64,000 bases of DNA. Origin: Clostridia bacterium. Lineage in GTDB: Bacteria; Bacillota; Clostridia; Christensenellales; CAG-314. Positions 54,018 to 61,350 of the stretch are shown here, piece after piece. A program made the translations under genes and the position numbers. Location: the NCBI GenBank assembly GCA_036654455.1, contig JAVVRZ010000002.1, forward strand, positions 328,332-392,331, given 5' to 3'. Every line of letters starts with the position of its first letter. Positions within the stretch are counted from its first letter, which is position 1. The notes below the pieces were generated by a model, which saw only the letters and a list, made by a program, of their open reading frames with translations, made no database searches and was not told the DNA's origin.

Positions 54018-54498
54018 TACTTATAAAAAATATAAAAGCATTTAAGCCTAGACATAATAACAGATTAAGTGTTAATTTTTGTTAATTACGGCTACATTTT
54101 AGTTTTATAAAGATAAAATGACAATAATTAGTCATCTTTTAAGTAATTTTTTTTTAAAAAACCTATTGACAAAGTGTTTTTGCTTTGTTACACTTCATTC
54201 AAACAAGGTAGTTTGATATTGACTACTTCGATGTTTACTATTTCTTTCATCATTATTTTTTAAAAGTATATTTTTGGTAGTTTGATATTTGACTATCATT
54301 ATTTATTTTAGGTTTGGGTTCTTTTTTTTAATTTATTTTTACTACTTACTTTTTAATTACATATTTTGGTAGTTTGATATTCGACTCGCCAACTTTATTC
54401 TATGTACTTGTATTCTTCACGACATCTTTGTAAGTTCAATTTATAAGTATGTTTTTTTATGCTTATAAATTGCCATATTAATATTAGGAGGAACAAAA
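54018..54498 (+). promoter_or_regulatory. Promoter and repeat-bearing leader of the nitrogenase-like operon
   Basis: Long AT-rich gap without a credible gene. A dyad ATGAC-N8-GTCAT (54118-54135) lies 30 bases upstream of a strong promoter, TTGACA (54166-54171), 17 bases, TACACT (54189-54194). The predicted transcript begins near 54201, leaving a leader of about 300 bases that is unusually T-rich. It contains three copies of GGTAGTTTGATATT and, just before the ribosome site AGGAGG (54486-54491), a hairpin with a 10-bp stem AATTTATAAG / CTTATAAATT (54438-54447, 54462-54471). No known riboswitch class was recognised. Confidence 0.7.
54207..54386 (+). repeat. Three direct repeats GGTAGTTTGATATT-GACT in the leader
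   Basis: Copies at 54207-54225 (ending in GACTA), 54276-54295 (ending in TGACTA) and 54368-54386 (ending in CGACT), spaced 69 and 92 bases. Each has weak dyad symmetry: GTAGT with ACTAC in copy 1, GTAGT with ACTAT in copy 2, AGT with ACT in copy 3. As RNA each could form a small hairpin showing UGAUAU in its loop. They may be operators or RNA-binding sites. Confidence 0.75.
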
Positions 54499-55437
54499 AT
54501 GAGAAAGAACAAACTATCAGTGTTGATATTAGTGTTGGTAATCGCTTTGTCTTGCACGCTATGCGGTTTTTCTAGCTGTAACGGAACAGGTGAAATAGGA
54601 GAGACCAAGACTATTACTACGCTAAATGGCAAACAAATTGAAATACCCGTTAGTCCGCAAAGAATAGTCGCTTTAACTAACGTTGGCGATTTACTAGCTA
54701 TGGGTATTACCCCAGTTGCAGGCGCAAACCAATTTATCAATGAGAACCTCGGTTTTTCCGCAAGCGGAGTAGCCGTACTCAAAAACACTCAACCCTTCGA
54801 CGCAGAGGAAATATTGTCTTATACCCCCGACTTAATTATTGTTTATCAAGATATGTCGATAGAGAATATAGCTACGCTCGAAGCAATCGCTCCGGTTGTT
54901 CCAATTAAGTCAAACAGTCTTGATTGTAGCGTAAGACTAGCCTATATTGGCGAATTGTTCAACCTACAAGATAAGGCAATTGAAGTTATTGGCCACGTTG
55001 ACACTGTTATCAGCAAAGCCATCGCAAGATTTAAGACCCTTAACGTTGAGGGAAAAACAGTTACCGTATTTAACTATTTTAGCGGACTAGAAATTATCGT
55101 AAGCGATATGTTTGCGTTTAATAGCATTATTTACAAAACATTTAAAATGCGCGCTCCTCAAAAAGTCGAAGACGAAATATTTGGACACGACGGAATGTTT
55201 GCAATTTCTAGCGAACTTATGGGCGACTACATAGGCGACTACATCTTTACGCTTATGGATCCTCTCCCCTCAGATTTAACCGAGCTACCTATTTGGAAGG
55301 CGCTTAAACCTGTAAAAGCTGGCGCAGTAGGATATCTTGATATGGAACTTTACTTACAGAAAGACGCCCTTTACGTAGAAAAACAATATGACGTAATACT
55401 TGATTTGTTAGAAGCGGCGTTTGGAGTTAAAGCGTAA
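54499..55437 (+). CDS. ABC importer substrate-binding lipoprotein (FecB/BtuF type)
   Basis: Extracytoplasmic binding protein (312 aa) of the PF01497-type class that serves ferric siderophores, heme, cobalamin and related metal chelates. The N-terminus is a signal sequence; the best lipid-attachment cysteine is Cys27 in GFSSC. The first lobe has PQRIVALTNVGDLLAMGI and the YTPDLIIVYQD strand that mark the family, then a long helix and a second lobe. AGGAGG stands 7 bases before the ATG. It is the first gene of the seven-gene nitrogenase-like operon; ligand residues cannot be assigned by eye. Confidence 0.88.
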   Translation: MRKNKLSVLILVLVIALSCTLCGFSSCNGTGEIGETKTITTLNGKQIEIPVSPQRIVALTNVGDLLAMGITPVAGANQFINENLGFSASGVAVLKNTQPFDAEEILSYTPDLIIVYQDMSIENIATLEAIAPVVPIKSNSLDCSVRLAYIGELFNLQDKAIEVIGHVDTVISKAIARFKTLNVEGKTVTVFNYFSGLEIIVSDMFAFNSIIYKTFKMRAPQKVEDEIFGHDGMFAISSELMGDYIGDYIFTLMDPLPSDLTELPIWKALKPVKAGAVGYLDMELYLQKDALYVEKQYDVILDLLEAAFGVKA

Positions 55438-55473
55438 TTAACGCTTACTACTATTAAATAAAAAGAGCGAGAT

Positions 55474-56499
55474 ATGCAACAATTACATATTAAAAAGAAC
55501 AATTTACAAAACTTTATATTGATTATGATTGTTGGTTCTGTGGCGCTACTTATCGTTGGCATTCTTTTCGTAATCTTTGGCGCAAAGAACATTAACTTTA
55601 TGGACATCTGGAATGCCTTTTTTAGCTATGACAACACAAACACAGACCACATCATAATTATCGGGCTTAGACTACCTAGATTGATTGCAAACATTATGGT
55701 AGGCAGCGCGCTTGCATTGACTGGCGCTATTATGCAGGGCAGTACAAAAAACCCTATGGCAGATAGCGGTCTTATGGGCATCAGCGGTGGCGCAGTATTT
55801 GCTATGACTATTATGTTAGTATTCTTTCCGGGTATGTCTAAGCTCGGCATGATAGGACTTTCTTGCTGTGGGGCGGCGCTTGCTACATTCATGACTTACT
55901 TTATAGCCGCAGCCAGCAGGAAGGGAATGACGCCCGAAAGGCTTGTTCTTTCCGGTATGTCTATTTCAATGCTATTCTCTTCGTTAAGTAGCGCTTTAAT
56001 ACTTAAATTTAATATGACAAGAGAATTAGCTTTTTATATGGCGGGTACGACCTCGACTGTCAACTGGCTCGACGTGCAGTTGTGCGCCCCAGTATTTATT
56101 ATTGGCGTAACTGTCAGCTTGTGTATCTCGCGTTCCCTTACGGTAATGAATTTAGGCGACGACGTGGCGACGGGACTAGGTCTTAATGTTAAATTAATTA
56201 AGACAATCAATACTCTTGTAGTTCTGTTGCTTACCGCAATGGCGGTTATTATCATAGGGCCGGTATCTTATATCGGTCTTATGGTACCGCACATCGCTCG
56301 TCACCTAGTCGGTACTGACTATCGCTTAGTGCTACCGACTTCGGCTCTGCTGGGCGCAATATTTGTAGTGATAGTGGACTTCATCGGCAAGATTATTATG
56401 AGTCCTTTTGAAATGCCCATTGGAATATTGCTATCACTTATCGGCGTGCCTTTCTTTATCTATATTTCCCGTAAACAGAGGAGGGAATTTGGACAATGA
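55474..56499 (+). CDS. FecCD-family ABC permease, first subunit
   Basis: Membrane permease of 341 aa with about ten helices. Family marks: RLPRLIANIMVGSALALTGAIMQG near residues 62-90, NPMADSGLMGISGGAVFA, the ATPase-coupling region GLNVKLIKTIN, and GPVSYIGLMVPHIARHLVG. The importer class is that of iron-siderophore, heme and B12 uptake. It overlaps the second permease by 4 bases (ATGA). Confidence 0.92.
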   Translation: MQQLHIKKNNLQNFILIMIVGSVALLIVGILFVIFGAKNINFMDIWNAFFSYDNTNTDHIIIIGLRLPRLIANIMVGSALALTGAIMQGSTKNPMADSGLMGISGGAVFAMTIMLVFFPGMSKLGMIGLSCCGAALATFMTYFIAAASRKGMTPERLVLSGMSISMLFSSLSSALILKFNMTRELAFYMAGTTSTVNWLDVQLCAPVFIIGVTVSLCISRSLTVMNLGDDVATGLGLNVKLIKTINTLVVLLLTAMAVIIIGPVSYIGLMVPHIARHLVGTDYRLVLPTSALLGAIFVVIVDFIGKIIMSPFEMPIGILLSLIGVPFFIYISRKQRREFGQ

Positions 56500-57512
56500 G
56501 AAAAGAATTAGTAAGAATGTCAAGTACTAAAAAGGGCGGTTTAGTAATATTAGCCTTAGGCATTGCAGTAATACTTACCACTTTACTTAGTATGTGTTTT
56601 GGACCAACCGGTCTACCCTTTGGTAGAATCATAGCTACGTTATTTGGCTTTGGTTCGCCAAAAGAGAATTTAATAGTGTTTACCTATCGTATGCCAAGAC
56701 TCATGCTCTCAATACTTGTTGGCATAGGTATGGGCGTATCGGGCGCAATTATGCAGAGCTTGCTAAGAAATGATATGGCAAGTCCGGGTACGCTAGGTAT
56801 TAGCTCGGGTTCGGGCTTGTTTATGATACTCTATGTAATCTTGTTCTTTGGCGACGAATACAGCGACTTTATGTTACCTGTGCTTGCGCTTATGGGCGGA
56901 ATTACATCGGCCGGGTTAATATTCTTGTTTAGCCGAAAGAAAGGCGTTCCTATTAGCCCAACAAAATTAATTTTAACCGGCGTTGCAATAAGCGGAGCGT
57001 ATGGCTCTGCGCAACTACTCCTAACGCTTACGCTAGAAGAAACCAAGATAGACTTTGTGCAGAAGTGGCAAGCCGGCGATTTATGGGGCACAGAATGGAA
57101 GTATGTAATTATTCTTGCTGTTTGGTTACTTATCTTTGTTGGCTGGGCGTATTATAAGGCAACAACGCTTAACACCATCAACTTAGGTTACGACATTGCA
57201 ACCGGTCTAGGCGTTAATCTTAACAAGCAATTTATAATACTTGCCTTATGCGCAGTAGCTACGGCGTCCGCAACGGTAGCCTTTGGCGGAAACTTCTTCT
57301 TTCTAGGTTTAATTAGTCCGCATATAGCGAGAAAAATAATAGGCAGTAACAATAAGATTTTAATGCCTGCCTCAGCGTTAGTCGCCTCGCTAATTGTTTT
57401 AGTCGGCGATATGCTCGCAAGAAACATCGGCTTCTTAATCGGCGTGCCGGCAGGAATTGTAATAACAGTAATTAGCATACCCTATTTCTTGTATTTATTA
57501 AGTAAAGCATAG
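56496..57512 (+). CDS. FecCD-family ABC permease, second subunit
   Basis: Second permease (338 aa), paralogous to the first: YRMPRLMLSILVGIGMGVSGAIMQ, NDMASPGTLGISSGSGLF, the coupling segment GLGVNLNKQFI, and GLISPHIARKIIG. Having two distinct permeases is usual in FhuBG/FepDG-type importers of ferric chelates, whereas B12 importers use one gene as a homodimer. GAGGAGGG precedes the ATG, which overlaps the first permease stop. Confidence 0.92.
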   Translation: MRKELVRMSSTKKGGLVILALGIAVILTTLLSMCFGPTGLPFGRIIATLFGFGSPKENLIVFTYRMPRLMLSILVGIGMGVSGAIMQSLLRNDMASPGTLGISSGSGLFMILYVILFFGDEYSDFMLPVLALMGGITSAGLIFLFSRKKGVPISPTKLILTGVAISGAYGSAQLLLTLTLEETKIDFVQKWQAGDLWGTEWKYVIILAVWLLIFVGWAYYKATTLNTINLGYDIATGLGVNLNKQFIILALCAVATASATVAFGGNFFFLGLISPHIARKIIGSNNKILMPASALVASLIVLVGDMLARNIGFLIGVPAGIVITVISIPYFLYLLSKA

Positions 57513-57519
57513 GAGAGAT

Positions 57520-58311
57520 ATGAATAGTATTAGCACACAAAACCTAAAAATAGGTTATCAAGATACAATTATAGTACCTAAGTTAGATATAACATTAGAG
57601 AAAGGCAAAATAACTTCGATTATTGGACCAAACGGTTGTGGCAAGTCGACTGTACTTAAAGCTATTAGTAGATTGCTTAAACCTAAGTCGGGTACAGTCT
57701 TAATCAACGACACCGATATGAAGACTATGCCAACTAAGGAAATTGCAAAGTTACTTGCAATACTTCCTCAAACGCCGGTTGCCCCTAGCGGATTAACTTG
57801 CGAGGAGCTTGTGGCTTACGGAAGATTTCCCTATCAAAAGGGCTTTGGCAAACTAAGCCCGCAAGATAAAGAGATAATTAATTGGGCAATGCAAGCGACT
57901 AGACTTACCGAATTTGCCAACCGAGAAATAGGCAGTCTTTCGGGCGGACAAAGACAGAAAGTTTGGATTGCTATGGCTCTTGCTCAGCAAACAGGCACAA
58001 TTTTATTAGACGAACCAACTACTTACCTTGACCTTGCTCACCAACTTGAAGTTCTTGACCTCTTAGTAGACCTTAACGTTAAACATAATTGCACAATCGT
58101 AATGGTTTTGCACGACCTTAACTTAGCTTCAAGATTTTCGAATTATTTATTGGCAATGAAGAGCGGTCACGTAGTTAAATACGGCACGCCCGAAGAAGTT
58201 ATGACAAATGAAATACTTAAAGAGTGTTTTAACATCGACGCTACAATAATGTTGGAAAAAAGCACCGGTAAGTATACCTGCGTAACTTACAATTTATTAG
58301 ATAGAGAGTAA
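57520..58311 (+). CDS. FecE-type ABC importer ATPase
   Basis: ATP-binding subunit (263 aa). Walker A GPNGCGKST (36-44), Q-loop in LAILPQTP, signature LSGGQRQK, Walker B TILLDEPTTYLD, H-loop VLHDLN. The GLTCEELVAYGRFPYQ segment between Q-loop and signature is typical of the FepC/FhuC/BtuD group. It completes the importer. Its stop is only 2 bases before the NifH-like start, so the importer and the reductase genes are one transcript. Confidence 0.94.
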   Translation: MNSISTQNLKIGYQDTIIVPKLDITLEKGKITSIIGPNGCGKSTVLKAISRLLKPKSGTVLINDTDMKTMPTKEIAKLLAILPQTPVAPSGLTCEELVAYGRFPYQKGFGKLSPQDKEIINWAMQATRLTEFANREIGSLSGGQRQKVWIAMALAQQTGTILLDEPTTYLDLAHQLEVLDLLVDLNVKHNCTIVMVLHDLNLASRFSNYLLAMKSGHVVKYGTPEEVMTNEILKECFNIDATIMLEKSTGKYTCVTYNLLDRE

Positions 58312-58313
58312 AT

Positions 58314-59051
58314 ATGAAAAAGATAGCATTTTATGGAAAAGGTGGCATAGGTAAATCTACCACAGTATCAAATATCGCAGTTGCTCTAACCAAACTAGGT
58401 TATAGAGTAATGCAAATAGGTTGTGACCCTAAATCAGACTCAACCGTCAACCATAACAACGGACAACGTATCCCTACTGTGCTTGACGCAATGAGGGATA
58501 GCGATACCGTTCTACTTGAAAACATTGTAAAAGTCGCCGACAACGGGGTAATTTGCGTCGAGGCAGGCGGGCCTGTTCCCGGTACGGGTTGCGCAGGCAG
58601 AGGTATAATTGCAGCTTTTGAGCAACTTCAAGCCTTATCCGCTTACGAAGTCTACAAGCCCGACTTTATATTATACGACGTTTTGGGCGACGTAGTTTGC
58701 GGTGGTTTTGCAATGCCAATACGAAACGGCTTTGCCGACGAAGTTTATATAGTAACTTCGGGCGAAATGATGTCGCTTTACGCAGCAAATAATATTGCAA
58801 ACGCAGTAAAGAACTTTGGCAAATATGGTTACGCTATGCTTAAAGGCGTAATTTTAAATTGCAAAAATGTCGAGGACGAATATGAGCTTACCAAGAAGGC
58901 TTGCGACGAGATGGAGACTACGATAGTTTACACCGTCCCTAGAAGTAGCGCAGTGCAAAGCGCCGAGAATCAACATAAAACCGTAATTGAAGCTTTCCCG
59001 GATAGCGAGATGTATAATACATATATAGGTCTTGCAAAGAAACTTATTTAA
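58314..59051 (+). CDS. NifH/BchL-like iron-sulfur ATPase (nitrogenase-family reductase)
   Basis: Homodimeric ATP-dependent electron donor of the nitrogenase superfamily, passing single electrons to its partner with ATP hydrolysis. The 245-aa protein has the deviant P-loop GKGGIGKST (8-16), switch I-like CDPKSDST, and both cysteines that hold the intersubunit 4Fe-4S cluster: Cys93 in GTGCAGRG and Cys129 in DVVCGGFAMPIR. Arg96 corresponds to the residue ADP-ribosylated in nitrogenase. It is shorter than NifH (about 275-295), lacking the C-terminal extension, as in BchL/CfbC-like proteins. It directly precedes the D- and K-like genes. Confidence 0.93.
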   Translation: MKKIAFYGKGGIGKSTTVSNIAVALTKLGYRVMQIGCDPKSDSTVNHNNGQRIPTVLDAMRDSDTVLLENIVKVADNGVICVEAGGPVPGTGCAGRGIIAAFEQLQALSAYEVYKPDFILYDVLGDVVCGGFAMPIRNGFADEVYIVTSGEMMSLYAANNIANAVKNFGKYGYAMLKGVILNCKNVEDEYELTKKACDEMETTIVYTVPRSSAVQSAENQHKTVIEAFPDSEMYNTYIGLAKKLI

Positions 59052-59052
59052 T

Positions 59053-60138
59053 ATGGATATAATTACTTATAATTCAAAAAAACTTAAAAAAGAGGCAATT
59101 TTGTCCTCAAACGCTATGGACGTAGGGTGTCACTGTCCTATGGACTACGTGCTTGAAGAAGCGCTTAATTTTGATATGCTTGATACTTTAATAGTAGGCA
59201 TAGGCGAATGCGCATTCTATTCTAAGCTAATTACTAGCGAATACGGGCAACAACATTGGAGTTATCGGCTTGCCGACAACGACCTAGTTTTTGGTTGCGA
59301 GAAGCAAATTAAGCAATGCGTAACCGAGATGCTTGCAAATACCAGTAACGACTTGCTTATTCTTGTAACTTGTATTCCCAACATAGCCAACCTTGACATA
59401 GAAGGCTATATTAGGGAGCTTAATCAAGATAAGCGAATTTATATTCTAGCAACTCCGCATTTCAAGGGTTTTTCGCCATTTGACAGCATACTTGACTTGT
59501 ATAGTCTTTTGCTATCAAGACAAGTTAGAACAAGTACCAGAGATGCCGTTGCTGTTTGGGGCGAAAACAAATCAATAGTATGTAAATTTAAACAAGAACA
59601 TATCGTTGGTCAAACTACGATAGCTAGGCTGGGCGAATTACTGGAATGTCAACGCCACATAGTCTTTGAAAGGCGTTATTTAAGAGGGGTTAAAGATTAC
59701 TGCGACAAATATAACTTACCTTTATACAATTTTGTAGGGTTAGAAGTCGCCGATGTATACTCAACCTATTATAAGGAATTAGGCGTTAAAGATGTTAGCG
59801 CAAAGGCTCGTCAACTTGAAGAACAAATTAAACTTAAACCTAAAAAAGTAGCTATTAAGGCTCGTCACGGCGTAGAAATTGCTAAATATCTTGCAAATTT
59901 CGGCATTAAAACTACTTTGCTTATTGTTGACGACTTCAACGTTTCAAATTATGAAAAAATTAGCAGTTACGATAATGACATTATGATAGTAAAAGATTAT
60001 AGCGTTAAATTTGAGCAAATCAAGAATTGCGAATATGACGCAGAGCTTGACTTTACTAAGGTCGAAGAAGAACTTTTCAATAAATACGGTTGCGAATTGA
60101 CAAGTTCGCTTTGCGAATTTGCGCTAGAAACGCTTTAA
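59053..60138 (+). CDS. NifD/BchN-like catalytic subunit (nitrogenase-like component 1)
   Basis: The start at 59053 is one base after the NifH-like stop; 361 aa, much shorter than NifD (about 480) and nearer CfbD. Three cluster-ligand cysteines can be aligned by eye: Cys26 (or Cys28) in DVGCHCPMD, Cys53 in GIGECAFYS, matching the HGPxGC position, and Cys107 in LVTCIPN, matching TTC. DNDLVFGCEKQI matches the DxVFGGexKL block. Spacing is close to BchN of DPOR, whose ligands are at 26, 51 and 112. No equivalent of the FeMo-cofactor Cys/His pair was found. Probably an ATP-driven reductase of an unknown substrate with one 4Fe-4S cluster. Confidence 0.85.
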   Translation: MDIITYNSKKLKKEAILSSNAMDVGCHCPMDYVLEEALNFDMLDTLIVGIGECAFYSKLITSEYGQQHWSYRLADNDLVFGCEKQIKQCVTEMLANTSNDLLILVTCIPNIANLDIEGYIRELNQDKRIYILATPHFKGFSPFDSILDLYSLLLSRQVRTSTRDAVAVWGENKSIVCKFKQEHIVGQTTIARLGELLECQRHIVFERRYLRGVKDYCDKYNLPLYNFVGLEVADVYSTYYKELGVKDVSAKARQLEEQIKLKPKKVAIKARHGVEIAKYLANFGIKTTLLIVDDFNVSNYEKISSYDNDIMIVKDYSVKFEQIKNCEYDAELDFTKVEEELFNKYGCELTSSLCEFALETL

Positions 60139-60150
60139 AAGGAGAGAATA

Positions 60151-61350
60151 ATGCCAGTTGAAAAATATATTTCACCAATAACCGCTCGTATGGCGGTGTA
60201 TGAAAACTTAATTAATCTTGTCAACTGCGCCGTAGTCGATTATAGCACAATGGGACACGGACTGTATAACTATGGCTATATCCCCAGACTTACAAGCAGT
60301 TGCGCTAGCATTAAAGCGTTTATGACGCATATTAGCGAAACCGATATTATTTTAGGTAGCACAAAAAAACTTTATTCCGCTATTGACGAGTTAACAAAAA
60401 ACTATAATTTCGACGCTATATTTATTATGCCTTCGGCGATTGCAAGCGTAATCGGGTTTGACCTTGCAGGCGTTGCAAGAGATTTATCGGCTAAATTTAA
60501 TAAGATTATTATATCCTTTGACGTAGGTTTAAGCCTTGACTATTATCAAGGCAACCAAGTAGCTAGTTTAAAACTAATCGAACAATTCTCCAAGCCTTCT
60601 TGTGATAAGAAGAAAAATTATTACAATTTGTTAGGCGGTTTTGTCAACGAATTTAACTACGAAGCCGATACAAGGGAAATAGTCGACTTGTTACATAACG
60701 CATTATTTCTTGAACCAAATTTTGTATATAACGGCGAAAATACTATTGAAAACTTTTCAAATATAACTTCTGCCGAATTTAATATCGTAACAAGTAGAGA
60801 GGCTATTCCTACCGCCGAATATTTGCAAACCAAATTTAATATGCCTTACATTTATTTTAGGCCTTATGGCTTTGATAATACCATAAAGAGTTTGCAAGAA
60901 GTAGCGGAAAAGTTCTCTTTACAAATAAATCACGACTTTTTAAGGCGAGAAAAAAATAAATATTTTAATATTTATGAACAAATTAAAAATATTATTAAAT
61001 TTGTGGGCAAGGAAATCAGCGTATACGCTAAGTACGACATAGCTTACGGCATTTCTAAATTTTTAGAAGAAGAACTTTGCGCAAAAGTTGAGAAATTGAC
61101 CGACAAAGAGAATACTACGGCGTATTGTAGTTACGACGAATATATAGTTACTCACAAAGATTATTCGGGCATAATATTTACTAACGACCAAGTCTTAAAA
61201 TTATTAGGCAAAGATAGGCGTTTGCAAGTTGACAACCCTGTCTACGCTTATAAAATGCTTAGCCCGTATTCGTTGCCCCTAGTATCCTTTTCGGGGGCTT
61301 GTCACATTTGCCAACTTATTTCTGCCGAACTAATCGGCGATAGATTTTAA
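60151..61350 (+). CDS. NifK/BchB-like subunit with lost cluster cysteines
   Basis: Partner of the D-like subunit, 399 aa (NifK about 520), with AAAGGAGAG before the ATG. By-eye alignment: SPITARMA replaces the first Cys-x-P block; STMGHGLYNYG replaces HGxxGCxxY, putting His36 where NifK has Cys and BchB of DPOR has its ligand Asp36; SETDIILGSTKKL matches the VFGG block; PSAIASVIGFDL matches TTCxxEVIGDDL with the cysteine replaced by Ala96. So none of the three canonical cysteines remains. Cys26 and Cys51 lie nearby at unaligned places. The fourth ligand of a shared cluster may be His36. Confidence 0.78.
   Translation: MPVEKYISPITARMAVYENLINLVNCAVVDYSTMGHGLYNYGYIPRLTSSCASIKAFMTHISETDIILGSTKKLYSAIDELTKNYNFDAIFIMPSAIASVIGFDLAGVARDLSAKFNKIIISFDVGLSLDYYQGNQVASLKLIEQFSKPSCDKKKNYYNLLGGFVNEFNYEADTREIVDLLHNALFLEPNFVYNGENTIENFSNITSAEFNIVTSREAIPTAEYLQTKFNMPYIYFRPYGFDNTIKSLQEVAEKFSLQINHDFLRREKNKYFNIYEQIKNIIKFVGKEISVYAKYDIAYGISKFLEEELCAKVEKLTDKENTTAYCSYDEYIVTHKDYSGIIFTNDQVLKLLGKDRRLQVDNPVYAYKMLSPYSLPLVSFSGACHICQLISAELIGDRF

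Follow-up and report, generated by a model that had tools for sequence, protein, structure and literature searches.

A candidate histidine ligand for the bridging cluster in an importer-linked, nitrogenase-like operon of a clostridial gut bacterium

The window, i.e., the whole 64,000-nucleotide stretch of DNA analysed here, comes from a gut bacterium of the class Clostridia and carries at 54499-61350, on the + strand, one operon of seven genes, in which the components of an importer are followed by a NifH-like, a D-like and a K-like protein:

54499..55437, + strand: substrate-binding protein, Peripla_BP_2 (FepB/FecB type; Pfam PF01497, E 2e-11; weak FepB match)
55474..56499, + strand: FecCD-family permease 1 (NCBIfam FecC/FhuB/FepD models)
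56496..57512, + strand: FecCD-family permease 2 (NCBIfam FecD/FhuB models)
57520..58311, + strand: ABC ATPase, FecE-like (NCBIfam PRK11231, 318 bits)
58314..59051, + strand: NifH-like ATP-dependent reductase (Pfam PF00142, 293 bits)
59053..60138, + strand: D-like (BchN/NifD-type) subunit, 361 aa, a short form (Pfam PF00148, E 3e-12; alignment to BchN and NifD)
60151..61350, + strand: K-like (BchB/NifK-type) subunit, 399 aa (Pfam PF00148, E 7e-43; structural model)

The bounds of the D and K genes are as given in the preliminary description of this DNA, D running from its ATG at 59053 to a stop codon ending at 60138, and K from its ATG at 60151 to a stop codon ending at 61350. The NifH-like protein contains both [4Fe-4S] cysteines, as read from its sequence (GTGCAGRG and VVCGGF). 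The importer lies directly upstream of the H gene in 24 of the 36 relatives with enough upstream sequence. In locus L062, from Candidatus Heteroclostridium caecigallinarum (of the same family as the window, and on the same contig as L117), the importer is likewise upstream of H with three genes in between; there, the genes for a FIVAR protein of 1200 aa and for two transglutaminase-like proteins stand between the ATPase and NifH and split the operon (L062:9975-16411). An assignment of these three large genes to a CobN-like chelatase set was rejected, the domains detected by Pfam being FIVAR and transglutaminase. Upstream of the operon in the window, within the 300 bp that precede it, the sequence GGTAGTTTGATATT occurs in three exact copies (54207-54220, 54276-54289 and 54368-54381), which are possibly the binding sites of a regulator. 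Its 13-base core, GTAGTTTGATATT, has no further exact copy in the genome, the loci of the relatives contain no copy of the 11-base core, and an Rfam search of the window gave no match.

To place the D and K proteins, 56 of each were aligned, from Clostridia, Paenibacillus, Pelosinus, Tissierella, Seleniivibrio and others, and a tree was built from K. The K sequences fall into three groups: A (39 rows) with the motif GCMGH, B (14 rows) mostly with GPAGTTH, and C with STxGH, comprising the window, L062 and L063, the last from the same order. Group A forms one side of a branch with support 99/98, C is recovered at 100/100 and A+C at 98/98, while B is not one clade. Some members of A were found by a DNA alignment scan (45 loci) whose pattern included the histidine of this motif, and these loci are thus not independent evidence for histidine as a rule. 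Searches at class and phylum level without that requirement yielded both the threonine-bearing branch described below and further histidine-bearing members. A protein-only scan of genome contigs for relatives gave no match, and a deeper search of the order for short-D members of clade C found none beyond the three. A short D subunit is common to these three, with 331-361 aa where most other relatives have about 420-440, and it shows Asn in place of Gly113 and His in place of Asn202 at positions constant or nearly so elsewhere. These changes, together with the shortness, suggest that the substrate pocket of clade C may differ.

For the assignment of cluster ligands, a reference alignment was made that included two BchN/BchB pairs and, from Rahnella, one NifD/NifK pair, all taken from plasmid records. 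The relevant residues of the D subunit are:

59134..59136, + strand: D Cys28, first cluster cysteine, aligned with BchN Cys29/30
59209..59211, + strand: D Cys53, aligned with BchN Cys54/55 and NifD Cys88
59371..59373, + strand: D Cys107, aligned with BchN Cys115/116 and NifD Cys154
59128..59130, + strand: D Cys26, extra cysteine near the cluster loop, in a column that is Cys in the window only (alignment)

The D subunit thus carries the three cluster cysteines of BchN, and all three are constant among the relatives, the Cys28 column being Cys in every row of the 56-row D alignment that covers the position. Cys53 and Cys107 had already been proposed as the counterparts of BchN and NifD cluster ligands, and the alignment bears this out. 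For the first ligand the choice had been left between Cys26 and Cys28. It falls on Cys28, which occupies the BchN Cys29/30 column; Cys26 was rejected for this place, as it stands opposite Val, outside the BchN cysteine column, and is confined to the window. In the comparison with NifD, Cys28 is opposite a Gly and not the first NifD cysteine, the loop differing in length. All three D subunits of clade C have an additional cysteine at -2 or -4 relative to Cys28; at these offsets there is none among 37 members of A, and in B only one of 14, locus L073, which also lacks the TTH histidine.

The positions of interest in the K subunit are:

60181..60183, + strand: K Thr11, at the first NifK cysteine position (alignment)
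60247..60249, + strand: K Thr33, an invariant Cys in 39 relatives (alignment)
60256..60258, + strand: K His36, at the position of BchB Asp36 and NifK Cys94/95, candidate fourth ligand (alignments)
60436..60438, + strand: K Ala96, at the third NifK cysteine position (alignment)

Inspection of the alignments shows that His36 lies without a gap on Asp36 of both BchB sequences, as had been claimed from the sequence alone, and on NifK Cys94 of Rahnella (Av Cys95). In a joint alignment of D and K it shares a column with D Cys53, and in the predicted secondary structure both are the third residue of a helix that follows a matching strand. Further, Gly35, Tyr39 and Glu63 of K, around His36, are invariant or nearly so in the 56 relatives, so that the alignment register at His36 is more than chance. 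Ala96 stands opposite BchB Cys95 and NifK Cys152, in agreement with its earlier placement at the third NifK cysteine, whereas the first NifK cysteine position, previously given to Ser8 or Ile7, is occupied by Thr11 in the alignment holding both BchB and NifK (opposite BchB Pro11 and NifK Cys69). Two propositions of the preliminary description, an asymmetric site with three cysteines in D and none at the corresponding K positions, and His36 at the place of the DPOR Asp36, are supported by alignment, conservation and tree alike. Its suggestion of K Cys26 as an alternative fourth ligand fails, this residue not being conserved and being Leu in both other members of clade C; K Cys51 was likewise rejected as a ligand for want of conservation. 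An acidic residue, Glu or Asp, is present at K position 30 in all 56 relatives, close to His36 in sequence.

A lack of conservation of His36 among orthologs had been named beforehand, beside a K Cys26 or Cys51 ligand, as an outcome that would refute the proposal, and neither came about: the histidine is kept in 42 of 42 members of the A+C clade, which represent 24 clusters at 70% identity. It is one of about 18 K positions that are fully constant in this clade, and with A+C supported as a clade a single origin ahead of the split between A and C is the simplest account, though the branches of the window and of several B rows are long. Clade C has changed K Gly32 and Arg215 and D Gly113, all constant in A and B, as well as the Cys33 that is invariant in A (39/39, in the motif GCMGH; Thr33 in the window); that it kept His36 through these changes argues for a role of this residue, short of proving ligation. 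In the B branch (L064, L069-L073, L078, L131-L138 and L176) the three D cysteines are retained, K position 36 is mostly Thr, and a His follows two residues later. The presence of Thr36 in this more distant branch indicates that the histidine is not shared by the group as a whole and that the family can work without it at this position.

Structure prediction places the K subunit near DPOR. The AlphaFold model of K alone (pTM 0.87) has beta-type chains as its best matches, DPOR B among the top ones, with query TM scores of 0.80-0.85 to DPOR B chains as against about 0.65-0.76 for most alpha chains, which gives K a predicted DPOR-B-like fold. The D and K genes share a frame, and a D-K readthrough fusion was also folded; this model has a pLDDT of 85, a pTM of 0.57 and a match to fused NifEN at TM 0.36-0.41 and rmsd 20.7.

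A nitrogenase or a FeMoco maturase is very unlikely on several counts. The columns of the FeMoco ligands (Cys275 and His442) hold Phe205 and Val337 in the window; a PF00148 search of the genome (1.37 Mb, about 95% complete) finds D and K and no other protein, hence no NifEN, and the best match in a search of the genome for NifB reaches 19 bits against a cut-off of 344. The full set of six P-cluster cysteines of nitrogenase is absent too, K having Thr11, His36 and Ala96.

The identity of the fourth ligand is where the readings diverge. Because His36 is aligned without gaps on Asp36 and NifK Cys94, is present in all 42 members of a supported clade and is retained in C, it is the leading candidate in the protein of the window, with a probability that we put at roughly 45%; a 3Cys:1His [4Fe-4S] site is possible, and such ligation may, as proposed earlier, raise the cluster potential. 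Against this, part of the histidine-bearing set derives from the scan that required histidine, the constant acidic residue at K 30 is also close in sequence, and the fusion model, at pTM 0.57, agrees poorly with the NifEN geometry. Moreover, cysteines are at hand: 39 of the 42 clade members also have the invariant Cys33, and the three that lack it are those of clade C, each with its extra D cysteine. This pattern would fit a cysteine as fourth ligand, K Cys33 in the main branch and, in the sub-clade of the window, the extra D cysteine (Cys26 in the window itself), with His36 then serving, for instance, in proton transfer or in hydrogen bonding to the cluster. However, the extra D cysteine has no single fixed position and, clade C being a single lineage, counts as one event; position 33 is Pro33 in BchB and Ser91 in NifK, neither of them a ligand, and His36 is kept in A and C alike. 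Cysteine ligation appears rather unlikely on this balance.

Alternatively, only the three D cysteines might hold the cluster, its fourth iron being open or substrate-binding, so that the imported compound would bind it directly, as in aconitase- or IspH-like clusters. Such a site would fit group B, which keeps the three cysteines with Thr36 and lacks any constant cysteine at the cluster positions of K, and related K subunits without conserved cysteines appear in Dos Santos et al. 2012 (PMC3464626). Yet in DPOR, among the closest folds, Asp36 fills this very position, and a good ligand found there in 42 of 42 sequences suggests use as a ligand; an open iron site is, on this account, quite unlikely.

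From this arrangement we infer the cluster type, its histidine ligation, the substrate and the reaction of the enzyme as follows. The Fec/Fep-type importer would take up a metal chelate. At the expense of ATP, electrons would then move from the NifH-like dimer to a D2K2 component, each DK pair of which would contain a single [4Fe-4S] cluster, as it does in DPOR. Its ligands would be the D residues Cys28, Cys53 and Cys107 and, as the leading candidate, K His36 in place of the DPOR Asp36; once reduced, the cluster would reduce the imported compound, most likely freeing iron from a ferric siderophore or a similar chelate. The operon's enzyme is most likely one that uses ATP to reduce a metal chelate brought in by the importer, and a ferric siderophore is a more likely substrate than a tetrapyrrole, although we are less sure of the siderophore than of the histidine ligation. 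The siderophore link is drawn from the transporter family and from one plasmid neighbourhood, that of the Sporomusa termitida plasmid pSPTER (L171:1558-14007), on which the whole operon adjoins a TonB-dependent siderophore receptor, an AraC regulator and a PF00756 esterase; this esterase has weak similarity to enterochelin esterase.

A tetrapyrrole substrate, haem or a corrinoid imported and then reduced as by DPOR, COR or CfbCD, would be compatible with any of the ligands considered. The transporter family imports haem and B12 as well. The K fold is close to DPOR B, and those characterised relatives whose clusters are all of the [4Fe-4S] type (DPOR, COR and CfbCD) act on tetrapyrroles (PMC11423573). 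However, no tetrapyrrole genes were found among the neighbours scanned, the binding proteins of the relatives score best with the FepB and FecB models and much lower with IsdE, and the Sporomusa copy adjoins the siderophore receptor and the esterase, which leaves a tetrapyrrole somewhat unlikely. The full combination, an ATP-driven ferric-chelate reductase whose electron-transfer cluster is held by three D cysteines and K His36, would represent both the first histidine ligand of a bridging cluster in the superfamily and the first nitrogenase relative to free siderophore iron; as a whole it is decidedly improbable.

The bridging cluster of nitrogenase-like enzymes helps to set the potential of the electrons that reach the substrate, and in the characterised enzymes compared the K-side position is Cys (nitrogenase) or Asp (DPOR). 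A K histidine holding the cluster would, if experiments confirm it, be a new way of doing so, and the natural histidine series, with the GCMGH branch and the Thr branch, would offer a ready-made ligand series for tests of how ligation tunes the potential. Additionally, the importer link opens the function of this widespread but uncharacterised group, which occurs in Clostridia, Paenibacillus, Pelosinus and others, to tests in strains that can be cultured, Sporomusa termitida being a good system of this kind for the operon.

Among known systems, DPOR (BchL/BchN/BchB) shares with the window the H, D and K gene set, the three D cysteines and a non-cysteine residue at K 36. It differs in having Asp36, within a 3Cys:1Asp site (PMC11423573), instead of the His36 of the window clade or the Thr of the other branch; in having BchB Cys95 where the window K has Ala96; in its identity of about 15%; and in that the window operon is importer-linked with a shorter D. 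The unusual ligation of DPOR probably lowers its cluster potential (PMC4157233). No photosynthesis genes were seen near the window operon, and the DPOR models score below their cut-offs (K 82 bits vs 490 for DPOR_BchB; the NifH-like protein 181 vs 345 for bchL). CfbCD has in common the lack of FeMoco, a catalytic component of the [4Fe-4S] type, in the window a predicted one, and a NifH-like partner; its CfbD is, unlike the window D/K, a homodimer without a K subunit (PMC11423573), and the NifH-like protein reaches 317 bits with the CfbC model, below the cut-off of 402. The isethionate reductase IsrHDK and the methylthio-alkane reductase MarHDK are nitrogenase-like HDK enzymes too. IsrHDK is likewise asymmetric and encoded beside an importer, but its cysteines are distributed the opposite way, D keeping one and K three, and MarHDK differs in its full P-cluster and [Fe8S9C] cluster.

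There is also a likeness in gene make-up to a clade described by Dos Santos et al. 2012, in which a D-like protein with three P-cluster cysteines and a K-like protein with none accompany NifH and an ABC ATPase (PMC3464626). Members of this light-blue clade, non-conventional nitrogenase-like proteins, include Clostridium botulinum CLM_0808/0809 and Alkaliphilus oremlandii Clos_0313/0314; a coupling of metal transport to cofactor assembly was suggested for it, and the DPOR Asp was cited as a precedent for a non-cysteine ligand among divergent clades (PMC3464626). The window locus has the same make-up: D has its three cysteines, K has no cluster cysteine, and both NifH and an ABC ATPase are present. 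It belongs to a sub-clade that is divergent, has a short D and carries STxGH in K. The earlier claim that its site is new for the superfamily agrees with the open literature searched, subscription papers lying mostly outside it, in which a histidine at K 36 finds no mention; but the clade make-up and the idea of a non-cysteine ligand date from 2012. The enzyme of this operon is a variant of an already known, uncharacterised group.
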